From a virus, in IMG/VR virus record IMGVR_UViG_3300006802_000105, positions 1 to 59,753 of that record: a DNA stretch of 59,753 nucleotides. One strand, given 5' to 3'. How positions within the stretch are numbered: position 1 is the first letter of the stretch; every line of letters starts with the position of its first letter. Below the pieces are notes generated by a model, which was given only the letters and a program-made list of their open reading frames with translations, did not search any database and had not been told where the DNA came from. Position numbers and translations under genes: made by a program. Below are positions 2,163-50,619 of this stretch, piece by piece.

Positions 2163-2429
2163 ATGGGAACACAGAAGCATACGGGTGCGAATGAGTTGAT
2201 TGACCGACTGGCTACTCAGGTTGGGAGCCGGGATTTGGCTATTGGTTTGCTGCGTAAGCGCGGGCAGATGGAGCAGGATTCGGAAACCCTTACTGAGGCT
2301 GGGCGGGCACGCAACGCCATGACAGCCAGTGAGCGGGCAAAAGATAGGGCTGCGAAACTCTCCGGCAGGCCCGCAAGCCAGTATAGCTACAACGTGAAAA
2401 CTAACCGCGCGACGCTGAAGCGGCGCTAA
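2163..2429 (+). CDS. hypothetical protein between terminase and portal
   Basis: 88 aa, strongly charged and probably helical, with a basic C-terminus (KTNRATLKRR). It starts 8 bases after the terminase stop and ends 17 bases before the portal gene, so it belongs to the packaging/head operon. No catalytic or binding motif is visible. Its place suggests a role in head assembly or packaging, but that is inference from position only. No good Shine-Dalgarno sequence precedes the ATG. Confidence 0.75.
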   Translation: MGTQKHTGANELIDRLATQVGSRDLAIGLLRKRGQMEQDSETLTEAGRARNAMTASERAKDRAAKLSGRPASQYSYNVKTNRATLKRR

Positions 2430-2445
2430 TGTCTAAAGGATTCCT

Positions 2446-5031
2446 ATGGCAACGAACAGCATGTCCCCGTCTCTTTACGCGGCTCCTTTGGGGCTTGACT
2501 CCATCGTACCGGACAAGTTCGACACTGGCGAAGGGCCTGCTGCGCTTGAAATAGAGATCGAGAACCCGGATCAGGTGACGCTGTCTGACGGGAGTGTGGA
2601 GGTTACGCTGATCCCCGACGCGGAGGAAGGCGAGTCATTCGACTCGAACCTTGCGGAGTACATGGAGGAGAAAGACCTCGCCATGCTGTCCTCCGAGCTA
2701 ATCGCACTCGTAGATGCGGACATCGCGTCGCGCAAAGACTGGGTAGATGCCTACGTCAAGGGCTTGGAAGTGCTGGGCATGAAGTACGACGAGCGTACGG
2801 AGCCTTGGTCAGGGGCCTGCGGGGTGTACAGCACCGTGCTGACGGAAGCGGCCATTCGCTTCCAAGCGGAGATGGCAACGGAGACGTTCCCTGCACAGGG
2901 GCCGGTCAAGACCCAGATTGTTGGTGCCATCGACAAGATGAAGGAAGATGCCGCTGCACGGGTGCAGGAGGACATGAACTACCAGATTCTGGAGAAGATG
3001 CCGGAGTACCGCCCCGAGCATGAGCGCATGTTGTTTAACCTTGGGCTGTCGGGTGCGGCGTTCAAGAAAGTGTACAAAGACCCGTCGCTGGATCGTCAGG
3101 TGTCCGTGTTCGTGCCCGCCGAGGAGATCATCATTCCTTACGGAGCTTCCGACGCCCGGGCAGCAGAGCGAGTTACGCATGTAATGCGCAAGACTCCCAA
3201 CGAAGTACGCAAACTTCAGGTAGCTGGGTTTTACCGGGATGTCGATCTGGGCGACCCCGTGCAGATTTCCACGGATGTGGAGAAGAAGAAAGCCGAGGAG
3301 CAAGGGTATACCCTAACTGATGATGAGCGCTTCCAGCTTCTGGAGATCCACGTTGATTACGACTTGCCGGGGTATGAGGACGACGACGGCATTGCGCTTC
3401 CTTATGTAATCACCATCGAGCGCGGAACGAACGAGGTGCTGGCAATCCGGCGCAACTGGGACGAAGACGACAAGAACCGGATCAAGAACCAGTATTTCGT
3501 GCAGTACACGTACATCCCCGGCTTCGGGCCGTACGGATTGGGGCTGATTAACCTGATTGGTGGCTATGCCCGTGCGGGCACGAGCCTGATCCGTCAGTTG
3601 GTGGACGCGGGGTCGCTGGCTAACCTGCCCGGTGGGTTGAAGTCCAAGGGGCTGCGGATCAAGGGCGACGACACGCCTATCGCTCCGGGGGAGTTCAGGG
3701 ACGTGGATGTGGCCTCTGGGACGGTGCGTGACAACATCATGCCCCTGCCGTACAAGGAGCCTAGCCAGACCCTCTTGGCGCTTCTGAACCAGATCACCGA
3801 CGAAGCCCGCAGGCTGGGTGCCATCTCGGACATGAAGATTAGCGACATGAGCGCTAACGCGCCTGTCGGCACCACGCTGGCGCTCCTTGAGCGCACACTG
3901 AAGACCATGAGTGCCGTGCAGGCTCGGGTCCACGCCTCGATGAAGCAGGAGTTCAAACTTCTGGCGGCAATCATTCGGGATAGCGCCCCTACGGAGTACG
4001 AGTTCGACCCGGCTACGGGCGACCGCAAGGCCAAGCGGGAAGACTACTCGCTGGTGGAGGTTATCCCCGTCAGCGACCCCAACAGTTCCACGATGGCGCA
4101 GCGGATCATGCAGTACCAAGCTGCCATCCAGTTGGCCCAAGGCGCACCGCAGATTTACGACTTGCCGCAGTTGCACCGCCAGATGCTGGAGGTCTTGGGG
4201 ATCAAGAACGCCGCAAAGCTCGTGCCGATTGAAGACGATATGACCCCGCGCGACCCGGTGTCTGAGAACATGGCACTGCTTACCGGCAAACCCGTCAAGG
4301 CGTTTATCTACCAAGATCACGACGCCCACATTGCCGTACACACCGCCCTGATGCAAGACCCGCTCCTGATGGCGCAGATTGGGCAGTCCCCACAGGCGCA
4401 GAAGATGCAAGCGGAGATCATGGCGCACGTCTCTGAGCATCTGGCGTTCGCCTACCGCAAGAAGGTCGAAGAGCAACTTGGCGTGCCACTGCCGCCCCCG
4501 GATGAGGAAATGCCCCCGGCAGTCGAGACCGCGCTGGCGAAAATCGTCGCGCAGGCCGCTCAACAGGTTCTGGCGCAGAGCAAAGGACAGGTTCAGCAAC
4601 AGCAGGCCCAGCAGGCCGCACAAGACCCGTTGGTGCAGATTCAGCAGGCGGAGTTGCAGATCAAGTCTCAGGAAGCCGCTACCAAAGCTAAAAAGGTCGC
4701 GGGCGACCTCGCAGTCAAGCAGGCAGAACTGGCCCTGAAGCAGCAGGAGTTGGCGTCCAAGATTGGCGAAACGCCGGAAATGTTGCAACAACGCCACATG
4801 TTGGAGATGTCCCAGCAGCATGCTCAGATGCAGATGATGCAGGAGAAACACGCCCAAGAGCTACAAATGGCCCAGCAGCAACACCAGCAGGGCATGGCCC
4901 ACGGCGGGCAGGTTCATGGTCAGAAGCTGATGCAGGCCCACCACGCCCACCAGCAGAAGCTATCCCACGCGGAAATGATGGCACAGCGGGCGGCGCAAGC
5001 GGCTGCACAGAAGCCGGAGGCTAAAGAATGA
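2446..5031 (+). CDS. portal protein
   Basis: 861 aa, the size of large podovirus-type portals. The N-terminal two thirds contain the helical wing/stem region (for example FVQYTYIPGFGPYGLGLINLI near residue 360 and a long helix with SDMKISDMSANAPVGTTLALLERTLK). The last 170 residues are extremely Gln/Ala/His-rich and coiled-coil-like, with many MQ and HQQ runs, which fits a C-terminal barrel-like extension. The portal forms the dodecameric ring at one capsid vertex through which DNA passes. The gene follows terminase and precedes the scaffold and capsid genes, as usual. Confidence 0.9.
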   Translation: MATNSMSPSLYAAPLGLDSIVPDKFDTGEGPAALEIEIENPDQVTLSDGSVEVTLIPDAEEGESFDSNLAEYMEEKDLAMLSSELIALVDADIASRKDWVDAYVKGLEVLGMKYDERTEPWSGACGVYSTVLTEAAIRFQAEMATETFPAQGPVKTQIVGAIDKMKEDAAARVQEDMNYQILEKMPEYRPEHERMLFNLGLSGAAFKKVYKDPSLDRQVSVFVPAEEIIIPYGASDARAAERVTHVMRKTPNEVRKLQVAGFYRDVDLGDPVQISTDVEKKKAEEQGYTLTDDERFQLLEIHVDYDLPGYEDDDGIALPYVITIERGTNEVLAIRRNWDEDDKNRIKNQYFVQYTYIPGFGPYGLGLINLIGGYARAGTSLIRQLVDAGSLANLPGGLKSKGLRIKGDDTPIAPGEFRDVDVASGTVRDNIMPLPYKEPSQTLLALLNQITDEARRLGAISDMKISDMSANAPVGTTLALLERTLKTMSAVQARVHASMKQEFKLLAAIIRDSAPTEYEFDPATGDRKAKREDYSLVEVIPVSDPNSSTMAQRIMQYQAAIQLAQGAPQIYDLPQLHRQMLEVLGIKNAAKLVPIEDDMTPRDPVSENMALLTGKPVKAFIYQDHDAHIAVHTALMQDPLLMAQIGQSPQAQKMQAEIMAHVSEHLAFAYRKKVEEQLGVPLPPPDEEMPPAVETALAKIVAQAAQQVLAQSKGQVQQQQAQQAAQDPLVQIQQAELQIKSQEAATKAKKVAGDLAVKQAELALKQQELASKIGETPEMLQQRHMLEMSQQHAQMQMMQEKHAQELQMAQQQHQQGMAHGGQVHGQKLMQAHHAHQQKLSHAEMMAQRAAQAAAQKPEAKE

Positions 5032-44786: not shown

Positions 44787-44814
44787 ATTATACAGAGTCA
44801 ATTGTCAACGTCAA
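44787..44814 (-). promoter_or_regulatory. strong sigma70 promoter for the replication operon
   Basis: On the minus strand TTGACG (44814-44809), a 16-base spacer, then a consensus TATAAT (44792-44787). It overlaps the last codons of the SNF2 helicase gene and lies 26 bases before the 44761 start codon. It would drive the 134-residue gene, the ssDNA-binding-like gene, the HTH gene and the primase-helicase. It is the best promoter in the window. Confidence 0.8.
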
Positions 44815-46361
44815 GCTATTTCTTGTCTATAGAGGTCTACCAGCCCTTGATGAAGGTCGATCTTCCCGTCCAGCAGGGCGTACATCCGCCGCTCCACCGG
44901 GCTCCCTTGCAGTCGCACGACGGTGACCTTGTTGGTCTGCCCCGCACGGTGGGCACGGGCGTTGCCTTGGATGTACAACTCCGCTGACGGCACTGGCCCC
45001 CACCACACTACGGTGTCTGCACGGGTGAGGGTAATCCCATGTGCAGCAGCTTGCGGGATAAGCAGGATGACCTTGGGGTCTACCTCCGTTTGGAACTGCT
45101 TAATGAAGTCCGCCCGCTGCGCCGCAGGGGTTCCGCCGTGGATAGCACGGAACGACACTCCAGCCTTTGCAAGCTCTTGCTCCAGCATCTCCAGCGTGTG
45201 CCTGAACGGCACGAACACGATGACCTTGTGGGCGGTCTGTGCAACCACATCGAGCAGTTCGTTTACTCGGTTGCTGACATCGAACTCAACAACTTCTTTC
45301 TCGGTGGTGTACGCGCAGCCCGCGCTGACTTGCAGGAGTTTGTTAAGTAGCCCCGCTGCGTTTACCGCCGTGATTTCGGCACCTGCGGCTTGCGCGACCA
45401 TCGACTTCTTGATTACGTCATAGTAATGTTGCTGCTGCTTGGTAAGCGGGACTTCGCGGTTGGTGTACAACATATCGGGAAGGTCTAGGCACTCTTCCTT
45501 CGTAAAGCGAATCGCGGGTTGCAGTACCTTGAAAACTGTATCCTGCGCAGTACGCTTTGGTGCCCATTTGAACTGCGTAACTTTGTACATCACCATGTCT
45601 CGGAATGCTCCGGCAAAGCGCGGCACCGCTGCTGGGTTCACCAGCTTGGCAAGCCCATACGCATCTACGGGTGACTGCGACGCAGGTGTGCCCGTCATGA
45701 GCCACAGGCGCGTCGCGGGCGTAACCAGACTGTTGAGTGCCTTCCAACGGTCGGTGCTTGTGGACTTGATGGCAGAGGCTTCGTCCACAATGATGAGGTC
45801 GAACTTAGCCGCTGCTAACTCCTCACGAACAACCTTTACGCCGTCGAAGTTGATGATGACAAACTCGTAGCCACCGTTGATGACGCGCAGCCGCTTGTCG
45901 CGTGCCCCCGATGCAATCGCCACCGTGCGATGCATAACCGTCTTGAACAAGTCCGAGCGCCACGCAGTGTCCATGATGGACACAGGGCACACCACCAGAA
46001 CGCGGGTTACTTCGCCTTGGCGCATCAGGTAGTCCGCAGCCCACGCTGCTGCACTGGTCTTGCCCGTCCCTGCTTCGGATAGCACAAGGCACTTAGGATG
46101 CGTTGCCAAGAATGCGGCGGTCTCTCGTTGGTGCGAGAACGGGGTGTAGACCCCGGGCCATTTGTACCGCCCGATGATGGGGTGCGGCACATCTTTGATT
46201 TGCAAATTGCGGAGCAGCTTCGCTTCGTTGTGCCCCCAGTTGACGATGATTCGTGCTTTGTCGCCGTTGCGGGCGATGACCTTGCTCTTGGGTATCAGGG
46301 CAGTGATCTGGTCTGCCTTTCGTGTCACAAACTGCAAAGCCCGGTTGTCTATTATTTCCAC
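44811..46361 (-). CDS. SNF2-family DNA helicase / translocase
   Basis: 516 aa with a GTG start and AAGGAG 5 bases upstream. Motif I EAGTGKTS lies at residues 96-103, motif II DEAS at 193-196, motif III LMTGTPASQSP, and the C-terminal helicase lobe has KVIVFVPFRHTLEMLEQEL, VILLIPQAAAHGITLTRADTVVWWG and motif VI QGNARAHRAGQ. This set defines SNF2-like superfamily 2 enzymes, which are common in phage replication modules. It probably remodels or unwinds DNA during replication or recombination. An intrinsic terminator precedes it. Confidence 0.92.
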   Translation of the reverse strand: MEIIDNRALQFVTRKADQITALIPKSKVIARNGDKARIIVNWGHNEAKLLRNLQIKDVPHPIIGRYKWPGVYTPFSHQRETAAFLATHPKCLVLSEAGTGKTSAAAWAADYLMRQGEVTRVLVVCPVSIMDTAWRSDLFKTVMHRTVAIASGARDKRLRVINGGYEFVIINFDGVKVVREELAAAKFDLIIVDEASAIKSTSTDRWKALNSLVTPATRLWLMTGTPASQSPVDAYGLAKLVNPAAVPRFAGAFRDMVMYKVTQFKWAPKRTAQDTVFKVLQPAIRFTKEECLDLPDMLYTNREVPLTKQQQHYYDVIKKSMVAQAAGAEITAVNAAGLLNKLLQVSAGCAYTTEKEVVEFDVSNRVNELLDVVAQTAHKVIVFVPFRHTLEMLEQELAKAGVSFRAIHGGTPAAQRADFIKQFQTEVDPKVILLIPQAAAHGITLTRADTVVWWGPVPSAELYIQGNARAHRAGQTNKVTVVRLQGSPVERRMYALLDGKIDLHQGLVDLYRQEIA

Positions 46362-46380: not shown

Positions 46381-46410
46381 AAAAAAGCACGGTAAGGTTA
46401 GCTACCGTGC
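46381..46410 (-). terminator. intrinsic terminator between HNH protein and helicase genes
   Basis: On the minus strand GCACGGTA-GCTAACCT-TACCGTGC, a perfect 8-bp stem, followed directly by TTTTTT. It ends the transcript coming from the polymerase/nuclease genes. The 102-base gap 46362-46463 holds nothing else that I see. The helicase therefore depends on read-through or on a promoter not visible to me. Confidence 0.85.
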
Positions 46411-46463
46411 AATCAATTACCAATCAGGGAGAAGCCAACTTGCGTTGGCGTCGCCAGTTTACA

Positions 46464-46742
46464 CTACCTAGTCGCTTCGCGCTTGCTAATTTGCGACTTC
46501 ATGGCACCAGTTTTGGTGCGGGAAAAACTACGGTTGGCGGAGCGCGATGCCGCCCGCAGGTTGCCGAGATCGGACGAACCGCCCTTGGACATAGCCTTCT
46601 TGTGGTCTACATCCACATTGTCCGGCAGCGTGCCATGCGCCTTCTCGTACGCCCGTCGAGCCTTGTGCCGCTCTGACTGCGCGGCAAGTTGCTTCGGGGT
46701 GCCTTGGTACCGCTCATATTCGAGCTTGTAATTTCTCGCCAT
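46464..46742 (-). CDS. small HNH nuclease-like protein
   Basis: 92 aa from the ATG at 46742, 4-5 bases after TAGGAGG. The centre reads LPDNVDVDHKKAMSKGGSSDLGNLRAASRSANRSFSR. DVDHKKAMSKGG carries the paired D-H of the HNH beta-alpha-metal fold and NLRAASRSANRS the final helix. The N-terminus is basic and helical (LEYERYQGTPKQLAAQSERHKARRAY). Such small HNH proteins occur in phage replication regions and may nick DNA. Not every HNH residue can be assigned with certainty. Confidence 0.75.
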   Translation of the reverse strand: MARNYKLEYERYQGTPKQLAAQSERHKARRAYEKAHGTLPDNVDVDHKKAMSKGGSSDLGNLRAASRSANRSFSRTKTGAMKSQISKREATR

Positions 46743-46750
46743 ACGGCCTC

Positions 46751-47410
46751 CTACCTGTGATGTTCGCACGTTGTAACGGGGCAAAAGCCGCACAAGCCAC
46801 TCGGGCGTGCGTTCCATACACCACCGTCCAGCGCAGCCTCGATCATACTCGCGTGCCCTGCCCATTTGGAGAAAATCTCAGGGAGTTGCGCTCGTGTGTA
46901 CTCGGCTTTCACAATGTCGTTTGCAACAACAAACAGCAACGCACCCTTGACCGAATTGATCTTGGGGTAGTGCGCCATCACCATTGCCGCCATAAGCTCC
47001 AACTGCTCCGTGTCCGCATAGCGGCTCGACTTACCTGTCTTGTAGTCCCCAATGCGGGCGATGCCCTTCTCGTGGTTGAGGGCTAGGTAGTCAGGGACGC
47101 CCCGGAACCATACGTCCTTTGCAAAGAACTCGCAGGGTGAGAAGTCGCGCCTGATGCCGAGCTTGAGTTCGCATTTGAGTTCCCCCGCGACCCGGGCGAG
47201 AGGCTCCACAAAGCGCTCGTAGTGCTTAAGATTTTCTGGAAGGGGTGTTCCGTTTTGGATGTAGAGTTCAAAGGCTTTATGCACACGCTCCCCGTAGAGC
47301 GTGGCTTCCGTGGGTGATGATTTGAAGTTCTTGAGAATGCGAACTTCGTGGTACCTGCGCTGGCATCCAAGGTAGTCTTTGATAGAGCTATAGGAATGTG
47401 CAAGCGCCAT
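46751..47410 (-). CDS. Cas4/RecB-type PD-(D/E)XK exonuclease with Fe-S cysteines
   Basis: 219 aa from the ATG at 47410 (MALAHSYSSIKDYLGCQRRYHE). The nuclease core shows H44 (GERVHKAFELY), D107 (RGVPDYLALN) and D122-Y-K124 (IGDYKTGKSS). Four cysteines, C16 near the N-terminus and C207, C210, C215 at the C-terminus (CGFCPVTTC), match the Fe-S cluster of Cas4 and AddB nucleases. A single-stranded DNA exonuclease in replication or recombination is likely. It lies between polymerase and HNH genes. No cas genes or CRISPR arrays are near. Confidence 0.88.
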   Translation of the reverse strand: MALAHSYSSIKDYLGCQRRYHEVRILKNFKSSPTEATLYGERVHKAFELYIQNGTPLPENLKHYERFVEPLARVAGELKCELKLGIRRDFSPCEFFAKDVWFRGVPDYLALNHEKGIARIGDYKTGKSSRYADTEQLELMAAMVMAHYPKINSVKGALLFVVANDIVKAEYTRAQLPEIFSKWAGHASMIEAALDGGVWNARPSGLCGFCPVTTCEHHR

Positions 47411-47448
47411 AGGTTTTTTCTGCGTTGAGTGGGCGCTAATTGTAGCGG

Positions 47449-50190
47449 TTAGCACTCCCCATAGGAATAGCCGACGCCCGACTCGCAAGCCAGCGGCAAG
47501 CCTGCCGCCCATTTGGGGTTCCATGACATGCACTCCTCTACGTATGCTCTTGCTTCTTTAGCATCTGACTCCTTGGCAATGATGGCAACCGCGTCATGCA
47601 CGGTCAGCACCACCTTGTACCGCTTGGCGATACGCAGCATCTGCTCCGCAACAACGCAGCGGGCGACGGCCTGAGTGAAGTTCTCCACGCAGTTATGAAC
47701 TAGAAATGGTCCCTCAGAACCTCGGACCACGAAGCGCGTTCTGGGTCCTGCATTGAGGAGGTCATAGACAGGTTCCGGTGCCATCGGTATAGAAGAGTGG
47801 ATCGCGGCACCCCCGTTATGGACTGCGCTTTCGCCATGTCTATCGGTAGCGCTCCGCGCCGATTCCCCGCTTGTATTTTGTACGACACCCAACGGCAGTT
47901 CTCCGGTGTGTAGTCCCCTGAGTTGTCTGTTCGATCCAACGTCAACCCCGGCTGATACGAAGGCCCCATGTCTGCCCAAAATGCCTCGAACGATTGCTCC
48001 CACCGCGTACACACCCTTATCCCACGCCCGCCGTAGTTGTGCCACGCCTGATGCGAAGGTAGCCGACATCGATCCCTCATAGACCTCCACACCCAATATG
48101 CTGGATGGCCCGAAAGTCCGTGCGATTTCGACTTCTGCCCGACGGCACATCCGCAAGACGGGTTCCCGCCCCGCTTGGCGTACTTCACCACATCTATCGC
48201 GGTGCGCGTTACCAATGTCCCGCACTGGCACTGGAACTCCCAAACTGAACGTCTCTCGGCTCCCGCATACCTCACTGCCGTCAGGCATCCAAAAGTCTGC
48301 CCCGTGTAGTCCCTCGCACGATGATGCACTTTGCCACCCTTCTGTTGTAAGTACGTTGTGATCTGGCGTCATGCGGACACCGTTAAGTACGATGGTAATC
48401 TTTTCACCTTGATATGTCAACCCGCTATGGTTGACCCACTCAACACCGTCCCACACTCGGTCCTGTACCGTAACGGAGGCTATCTGAATCCACCCGCGCT
48501 CAGTGAGCACTTCAGTATCGGCCGCTAGGCACTTGCCGCCGTATATGTAGACCGGCAAGCATTTCGATATGTAGCGCCACTGGTTCTTCTCTTCGCCCTC
48601 GGCGTTCTTCATGAGTACGCGCTTGAGGTCAGGGTATCGGATGAACAACCCGCTTGGTAGCGTCAGCCCTTCGTCAGGTACGACGTTGACGACGCCCGGT
48701 ACATCGACCCGCATTGCATTGCCCATTGCCAGCGCCCGCAGCGCAGCCTCGCCCTGCCTCCACAACTCTGGAATCTTCGGGTACGTGGCGCGGTACTTAT
48801 CGACGATGCGCTTGGCCTCCTCCTCGGACACATCCACCTTGGCTTGCATCTTCAGGAACGCCCGCAGCTTCTTGTGCCCGACACCGTAGCCCGCACCAAG
48901 AATGACGGTCTTGCCCACCTGCCGCTGCCCCGGGTCGATCTGATCCACAGGCACGTCGTAGATGGAGCTTGCCATGATCTTGTACACATCCTGCTTGTCT
49001 GCAAACGCTTGTACCAAGTCATGCTGCCCAGCCAGCCACGCCAGCGTGCGGGCTTCGATCTGCGAAGAGTCGCAGTCAATCACAACATGCCCGGGCGGTG
49101 CCATGATTGCCCTCTTGATGCGCCCTGCGCTGGGTCCACGCGCTGGCAAGTTCTGGAGGTTCACGGAGTCCTGCCCGCTCCACCTACCTGAGTGTGCGCC
49201 GTAGTACCGCAATGGCACAGGGAACGCCCCGCGCTCGGCCATGCCGATGAACCGTTGCGTGCGTGTCTCTTCCAGCGTTGTCTTGTTCCCTAACCGTGCA
49301 GCAACAAGTCCCTGCACATCCGGGTCGGAATGCTCCTCCAACGCCTTGAAATCCTCATCCGTCTTTGCAAACGCATAAGTCATCTTGCCTGTAGTGGGGC
49401 TGCGCTTCATGGGCGGCTCGACGTTGAACCGACGCAGCAAGTCCGCGAACTTGTCATTGGACATCAGCAGCTTCTTGATACCGTCAATGCCCTCGGTGTA
49501 CACCGCATGTACGTAATCCGGGTCACCGCCCGCCAGCATCATGTCGCGTACCCTGTCCAGCAGTGCTTCCTTGCGGTCTACAACATCTTTCAGATGCGTT
49601 TGCAGCGCCGCCTTGTCCAGCACCAGCACGGGCTCCACGAACATCCGCAGCGTAAGGTCGATAAGCTCCAGTTCCTGCCGGGGGAAGCCCATTCCCATGT
49701 ACTTACAGAACAGAGAGTAGGTTAGCTCCGTGTCGTTCTTGCAGTACTCCCCGTAGCGCTCCAAGGCTTCCGTGCCAAAGTCCGCGTAGCGAAGGCCCAG
49801 TGCATGGATTACCTCGTCTCCCTTGGCACCGATGTCGGCCCGCGCGGCTTGCGCTGCAAGGCTATGTGACTGCGCGTGCGGGAACAACGCACGGGACATA
49901 CCCAGCGTATCCAGCCACGCCTTCGGCTGCACTCCGTAGTGCCAGTGCAGAATGGCCGCATCAAACGCCGTGTTCTGGCACACAACAAACTTGCTCGACC
50001 AGTCTATGCTCTTCAGCACTTCGGCTACTTGCGGCTTTGGATACCACTGCGCCGGGGCATCGTCGATCTTGAGGCTGAGTCCAATCACCTCGAACTCCGG
50101 GCTACGAACGTACTCCTCGGTAGTGATCTTGCTAAGACTGAACTCCCTGCTGTAGTAAGTCTCGATGTCGATTGTCACGATCTGGGGCAT
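47449..50190 (-). CDS. family A DNA polymerase containing an intein
   Basis: 913 aa as translated, 633 aa after splicing. The N-extein starts with a 3'-5' exonuclease (D8 and E10 in TIDIETYY). The polymerase fingers and palm follow ([58 protein letters not shown]). After the intein the C-extein resumes at [18 protein letters not shown] and contains the catalytic VHDAV motif C. GGAG lies 5 bases before the ATG. This is the replicative polymerase. The insertion point is just before motif C, a highly conserved site typical of inteins. Confidence 0.95.
47692..48531 (-). mobile_element. intein in the DNA polymerase gene
   Basis: 280 residues between ...YIYGGK and CVENFTQ. Block A is [14 protein letters not shown] with nucleophile Cys1. 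Block B is [14 protein letters not shown] (T-x-x-H at intein residues 55-58). Block F is [16 protein letters not shown]. Block G ends LVHN with a terminal Asn, and Cys is the +1 residue. All residues for self-splicing are present. Between blocks B and F the frame shows no LAGLIDADG or HNH motif. Instead the +1 frame of that DNA encodes an HNH-family protein (47700-48329). Confidence 0.93.
47700..48329 (-). CDS. HNH-family homing endonuclease nested out of frame inside the intein
   Basis: 209 aa in the +1 frame relative to the polymerase, wholly inside the intein. The GTG start follows AGAAGG at 8 bases. Two CxC pairs (C34/C36 and C59/C61) form a zinc site. The core shows [36 protein letters not shown] and [17 protein letters not shown], the consensus order of a common HNH/AP2-associated phage and bacterial family. 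A C-terminal helix-turn-helix-like tail ([15 protein letters not shown]) follows. Its coding overlaps blocks F and G of the intein. It probably cuts polymerase genes that lack the intein. Confidence 0.88.
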
Positions 50191-50326
50191 TGGTTCTCCA
50201 AGGTTGGTTTGTTTTGAGCGCGTACCGCTTACGGTCGCGCTCTCGTTTTGCAGCTAATTGCTGTTCTTCTTTAGCAGCGGCAACGGCTCCACCTTGGAGC
50301 GCGTTGCGTACATCTTTGATGGTCAT
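50132..50326 (-). CDS. small basic protein upstream of polymerase
   Basis: 64 aa. The ATG overlaps the stop of the VRR-NUC gene (ATGA). The sequence starts MTIKDVRNALQGGAVAAAKEEQQLAAKRERDRKRYALKTNQPWR, helical and basic, and may bind DNA. The last 59 bases overlap the start of the polymerase gene in another frame, which is longer than usual here, so the true end is as given but the C-terminus may be unconstrained. No family is recognised. Confidence 0.6.
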   Translation of the reverse strand: MTIKDVRNALQGGAVAAAKEEQQLAAKRERDRKRYALKTNQPWRTNAPDRDNRHRDLLQQGVQS

Positions 50327-50619
50327 GGCCGCTTCTTGAGCGTCTCGATTGTATGGGGCAGCGCCGCCACCCCATCCTCGTTTACCACTATCGCCACGCC
50401 ACCTGCCTTGGTAATTGCGGCGATCTCTCTGTCTTGCAGCACAGTCGTCTTACCCGCACCCGCCTTGCATTCGATAGCCAAGTAGCGCCCATCCACGCAG
50501 CAGATGATGTCGGGGATGCCGACCCGCCCGTAGCCATTGGCGGCGGGGGAAAAATGGTACACCCCATGTGCGTCAAGGATCTTCTTTACCGCAGTCTTAA
50601 CCTTTGCTTCAGGGGTCAC
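50323..50619 (-). CDS. VRR-NUC domain nuclease
   Basis: 98 aa, the length of stand-alone phage VRR-NUC proteins. The motifs are NGYGRVGIPDIICCVDGRYLAIECKAGAGKTT, with G-x-PD (catalytic Asp in IPD) and the E-x-K pair in AIECKAG, then a Gln-containing helix (VLQDREIAAITKAGG) and the VVNE end. This PD-(D/E)XK family includes Holliday-junction-type and structure-specific nucleases. It is coupled to both neighbours by 4-base overlaps. A role in resolving replication or packaging intermediates is likely. Confidence 0.9.
   Translation of the reverse strand: MTPEAKVKTAVKKILDAHGVYHFSPAANGYGRVGIPDIICCVDGRYLAIECKAGAGKTTVLQDREIAAITKAGGVAIVVNEDGVAALPHTIETLKKRP

Follow-up and report, generated by a model that had tools for sequence, protein, structure and literature searches.

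We found that the family A DNA polymerase (PolA) gene of a virus contig very probably carries a mobile mini-intein with the gene of its homing endonuclease nested, out of frame, in the intein's own DNA. The contig (IMG/VR record IMGVR_UViG_3300006802_000105, 59,753 nt) is referred to here, in its full length, as the window; its relevant features are listed in Table 1. An intein with an overlapping-frame endonuclease had been proposed in an earlier, sequence-only reading of the window, and it is supported by conservation of both reading frames, avoidance of stop codons, selection, a predicted Hint fold and empty insertion sites, all of which were observed computationally.

Table 1. Features of the intein-containing polymerase gene in the window
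Feature	Position	Strand	Evidence
PolA ORF, 913 aa, interrupted by the intein	47449-50190	-	PF00476 E=1.3e-37; phrog_17 E=6e-91
Mini-intein, 280 aa, preceded by YIYGGK	47692-48531	-	PDB profile matches to Mtu RecA intein; Foldseek inteins prob 1.00
Intein block A (Cys1 ... G)	48493-48531	-	C1, T6 and G13 invariant in 34 inteins
Intein block B (TxxH)	48334-48381	-	T55, H58 and W66 invariant in 34 inteins
Shine-Dalgarno-like AGAAGGGTGG within block B, shortly before the HNH GTG	48334-48343	-	anti-SD duplex energy -7.4
HNH endonuclease ORF, 209 aa, GTG start, TAG stop, +1 relative to the intein	47700-48329	-	phrog_374 'HNH endonuclease' E=4e-55
HNH CxC pair 1 (CQC)	48222-48230	-	C34 and C36 invariant in A1 and A5
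HNH CxC pair 2 (CGC)	48147-48155	-	C59 and C61 invariant in A1
HNH core NYGGRGI...LDRTDN...NCRW	47889-48038	-	invariant columns in 23 members
Intein block F, overlapping the HNH ORF end	47725-47769	-	D257 invariant in 34 inteins; AlphaFold pLDDT about 95
Intein block G (EGPFLVHN), then Cys+1 at 47689-47691	47692-47715	-	H279 and N280 invariant in 34 inteins

The polymerase gene and its intein

The polymerase frame contains no stop codon from start to end, and it reads through a complete intein of 280 residues, as had been claimed. The residues of class 1 splicing chemistry, namely Cys1, the TxxH of block B, the terminal His-Asn and Cys+1 (HN/C junctions), are all present, and C1, T55, H58, H279 and N280 were invariant across the 34 inteins compared. 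In the AlphaFold model, pLDDT was about 95 for residues 1-70 and 251-280, 75-86 for residues 71-90 and below 50 for most of residues 89-246; in other words, the ordered parts were residues 1-88 and 247-280, and the stop-free segment between them (89-246) was mostly disordered. Both well-predicted intein ends agree with a Hint fold, and the top Foldseek matches were inteins. The alignments used for structure prediction consisted of the window and the loci fetched in our searches, with the rows from phage records left out. A Pfam search gave an above-threshold match for neither the intein nor the HNH product. The insertion points of the window intein and of those at loci L001, L002 and L003 differ by one to four residues within the motif YGGK-L-VEN-xQA; the insertion point appears to have moved among these four loci.

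We also considered the possibility that the insert is an RNA intron and that the open polymerase frame is incidental. Group I introns harbour many HNH genes, and a type I self-splicing intron is the name given to the insert in the record of Sodalis phage SO-1. However, the SO-1 insert contains the same intein blocks, the splicing residues are invariant, the structure search retrieved inteins, the polymerase frame has 0 stops and an Rfam search of positions 46400-50400 yielded no match even at E <= 1, which makes an intron highly improbable.

The HNH endonuclease in the shifted frame

The claim of an intact 209-residue HNH protein lying one base off the intein frame was confirmed to the base, together with its two CxC pairs and its GGRGI / LDRxDN / NCRW core. 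The ORF begins at intein nt 203, immediately past block B, and its stop codon ends 8 nt short of the last base of the intein; the previously noted overlap with the C-terminal splicing blocks is thus real. The Pfam HNH model did not match the window protein, and the best fold match of its AlphaFold model (pLDDT 83) was a weak one to PacI (E 0.57); the HNH assignment therefore rests on the PHROG family, which was matched by 23 of the 23 HNH sequences, and on conservation, and the predicted nuclease activity has the same basis. The ORF is intact and is neither an artefact nor a remnant. A small protein with weak HNH similarity is also encoded at 46464-46865 of the window, downstream of the polymerase and exonuclease genes.

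Occurrence and frame offsets among relatives

Relatives with the same overlap had been suggested as a check, and the same intein/HNH pair with the same 202-nt offset was found in Caulobacter phage RW, Shewanella phage SFCi1 and the Hamiltonella APSE phages, the offset recurring in homologues at 45-69% HNH identity. Further loci, retrieved with the HNH alignment as query, came from virus contigs and from prokaryote genomes, among them Alicyclobacillus, Paenibacillus, Arsenophonus and Novosphingobium. These loci fall into two classes. In class 1 the HNH frame is at +1, and the hosts are PolA and SNF2-type helicase genes (phrog_62); in class 2 a related HNH lies at +2 at another PolA site, as in Pseudomonas phage MR14, EBPR siphovirus 2 and the Salmonella jerseyviruses. 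The window also encodes an SNF2-type helicase (44811-46361) without an intein; related helicases have a class 1 overlapping intein.

The loci were classed from intein block profiles alone, with stop codons disregarded. Both blocks were in one register for 44 of the 47 intein-block-flanked HNH genes, a set that includes near-duplicates (three APSE phages and an Arsenophonus prophage; L021 and L023; L008 and L090), and the HNH was out of frame in 44/44 (30 at +1 and 14 at +2) and in frame with the splicing domain in 0/44. The other three were L024 (contig cut), L092 (HNH N-terminus lost) and L091, an old record in which a 2-nt insertion, probably a sequencing error, disrupts both frames. Compensating indels that would put the HNH in frame with the intein were looked for in the homologues and none were found; loss of the +1 frame was likewise looked for, and the +1 offset is kept. 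An assembly or frameshift error in the window, itself a virus contig from IMG/VR, is scarcely conceivable: L091 probably holds one such error, but many independent contigs, and isolate genomes as well, have the same offset, and the 202-nt offset is common to distant loci. As to mobility 'regained or kept', the endonuclease was not regained in this phage: the overlap is common to a clade of about 30 loci.

In the phylogenetic tree, each HNH class forms one clade, +1 and +2 respectively (support 100/99 and 100/100). The maximum-likelihood tree places free-standing HNHs between the two classes, and a joint clade was not rejected (AU test, P = 0.24), so that one origin or two would fit; the differing frame offsets would favour two separate captures.

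Several loci show related arrangements. The Arsenophonus copy (L173:3799-4716) has an HNH frame that ends early and an open intein frame, which amounts to decay of the endonuclease only. At L092:2432-6266, one polA gene contains two inteins, one of each class, and the N-terminus of the class 1 HNH has been lost to a stop. In both loci the HNH frame is interrupted and the host frame is not, so that the endonuclease is dispensable to the intein. Two further PolA relatives (L270:2112-5090 and L275:1932-4850) are divided by a fractured intein, located at a third PolA site (SGRWSG/C ... HN/S), and in both the N-intein ORF, the HNH ORF and the C-intein ORF are each in a different frame. A candidate from Vibrio phage ICP2 was dropped, as its polymerase is broken into two frames and has no intein blocks.

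Stop avoidance and selection on the two frames

We computed the number of stop codons expected in the intein frame by shuffling HNH codons among synonymous positions. For the window ORF, a mean of 4.8 stops was expected and 0 were observed (P = 0.003 for this sequence alone). Class 1 had 0 stops in the intein frame versus 194 expected, compared with 357 versus 342 in the unused frame; the corresponding values for class 2 were 0 versus 56 and 227 versus 215. Both classes together thus contain 0 intein-frame stops under the endonuclease, compared with about 250 expected, whereas free-standing HNH relatives exhibited no such avoidance (1858 versus 2018 expected). The class labels in this comparison themselves drew on the absence of stops, and for this reason the block-based classification matters; it recovered the same loci, and no intein-flanked HNH was missed except L024, L092 and L091.

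Among 14 distinct jerseyvirus-type inteins, omega for the HNH core was 0.21 among changes nonsynonymous in the intein and 0.11 among those synonymous in it, and the changes cluster at HNH codon position 3. The jerseyvirus endonuclease is accordingly under purifying selection (omega about 0.1-0.2). Omega for the intein frame was 0.43, a value based on few doubly synonymous events, or 0.87, which indicates weak constraint. This formal test was done on class 2, and the window belongs to class 1; in three class 1 pairs (75-79% HNH identity), 58-64% of the differences fell at HNH position 3, which is intein codon position 1. Among distant sequences, intein-frame similarity exceeded the expectation from HNH conservation chiefly in two places, beside block B (z 7-11) and over the C-terminal blocks (z 5-12). 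Since the excess is found mainly at the ends, the middle of the intein resembles a passive linker that must stay open. The earlier statement that two proteins constrain the same bases thus holds mainly at the two ends; in the middle, the chief demand on the intein frame is that no stop arises.

These results also bear on the view that the HNH frame is a decaying remnant whose expression has been lost. The frame is indeed broken in two copies (L173 and L092), but it is intact in nearly all copies, the low omega holds between strains and the starts are conserved, so that this view is very unlikely; a pseudogene reading of the HNH was rejected on the grounds of stop avoidance and purifying selection.

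Predicted start site of the endonuclease

Each of the 26 class 1 loci tested has a start codon (ATG, GTG or TTG) no more than about 36 nt from where the alignment begins. The mean SD duplex energy was -8.0 for class 1, compared with -4.1 for internal starts picked likewise (P = 7e-11), and -10.4 for class 2 (P = 8e-9). Loci with CTG or CCG at the usual start codon have an ATG 15-18 nt upstream. In class 2, an ATG lies at intein nt 92-98 in 13/13 loci tested and in 14/14 jerseyvirus-type copies. Part of the SD signal follows from the encoded amino acids, either E-G-W, which is conserved in block B of PolA inteins, or W-D-G-E-E-W-V; in helicase inteins, where the HNH start lies further on, GAGG or AGGAG is mostly present too. 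These patterns suggest that the HNH is translated separately from its own start.

Alternatively, programmed ribosomal frameshifting from the polymerase frame might yield an N-extein/N-intein/HNH fusion, with no start of the endonuclease's own. Such a mechanism would agree with an HNH frame that is open only shortly upstream of its start and with the weakness of some start codons (GTG, TTG). However, an above-background SD and a start codon are kept at every class 1 locus tested while the exact codon turns over, and the conserved class 2 ATG likewise counts against frameshifting, which we regard as unlikely.

Mobility and empty sites

The presence and absence of the intein at the exact site was observed in close relatives, both for the jerseyviruses and for the window, whose relatives are empty. 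The jerseyvirus polA gene matched 396 phage records, and 151 of these span 80% or more of the gene with its intein. Many other jerseyvirus polA matches are without the intein; exactly 897 nt are absent and the empty joint is exact. Divergence of the intein was 0.03-0.10 between phages with an upstream extein divergence of 0.15-0.23. The intein is hence more alike between phages than the host gene is, as homing would predict, and horizontal transfer of the intein has occurred in this related class. For the window, Megablast of the polymerase against phages gave no match; in its nearest polymerase relatives (82% identity) the insertion motif is uninterrupted, which represents an empty site.

Proposed mechanism and implications

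From the sequences, we infer splicing, separate initiation, cleavage and homing of this element as follows. Ribosomes on polA would produce a precursor containing the intein. The two halves of the Hint domain (residues 1 to about 88 and about 247-280) would fold together around a disordered linker, the product of reading the endonuclease gene in its 'wrong' frame, and would excise the intein by splicing. Some ribosomes would initiate at the GTG just past block B, preceded by the SD-like sequence that block B residues E-G-W encode, and thereby make the HNH endonuclease. The endonuclease would then nick or cut the intein-free polA of co-infecting phages, and repair would copy the intein in.

Such an arrangement requires that the endonuclease sequence never introduce a stop into the intein frame, and it decouples splicing from the endonuclease, which can decay while splicing continues. 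Mini-inteins listed as endonuclease-free may encode one in another frame. As overlapping genes of which one frame is mostly a passive linker, these loci make ideas on overprinting directly testable. Dozens of phages and prophages share the arrangement, and its hosts include the polymerase gene of Salmonella phages that are common and well represented in collections.

Comparison with known systems

In canonical inteins, the endonuclease domain is fused in frame between blocks B and F. The elements studied here share with them the Hint splicing domain, an endonuclease segment after block B and homing inferred from the data, but they encode the endonuclease as a protein of its own, in a different frame that extends into the C-terminal splicing blocks. 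Fractured genes were reportedly described by Dassa et al. in 2009, with split inteins and a free-standing endonuclease nested between the N- and C-intein coding parts. The nesting is alike; in contrast, the host frame is unbroken here and the PolA ORF is continuous. It is probable that out-of-frame endonucleases constitute a third standard architecture of mobile inteins beside in-frame fusion and fractured genes, one that arose at least twice, in both frames and in phage PolA and helicase genes, aided by EGW/WDGEEWV codons usable as ribosome-binding sites.

Members of the two classes are already present in GenBank, namely APSE-1 P45/P46, the PolA intein of Salmonella phage Ent3 and Sodalis SO-1 gp38/gp39; one or both ORFs are annotated in these records, but the overlap design is undescribed. 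In APSE-1 (L001), the HNH annotation of P46 (3431-3853) has its start about 230 nt too far downstream, homology extending from a GTG at 3203. In Sodalis phage SO-1 (L281:777-3965 and 2261-3019), the insert recorded as an intron contains the class 2 intein blocks together with an HNH at +2. In the open-access literature we found no account of such an overlap as a way of building an intein, and an overlapping-frame endonuclease inside an intein is apparently an undescribed design.

The nearest published case, and the sole other out-of-frame HNH in a host gene that we found there, is the ShiLan domain, reported in 2025 as an out-of-frame HNH insertion that leaves the frame of its host gene open and has a GTG start (PMC11855218). 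No self-splicing domain or ribosome-binding site was detectable in it; it was argued to be neither an intein nor an intron, and its distribution was read as homing (PMC11855218). Our elements are similar in that the HNH occupies another frame of the insertion, the host frame is open, a GTG start is present and homing is inferred from distribution. They differ from ShiLan in that a complete Hint intein is present, both frames show selection and the start is preceded by SD-like sequences.
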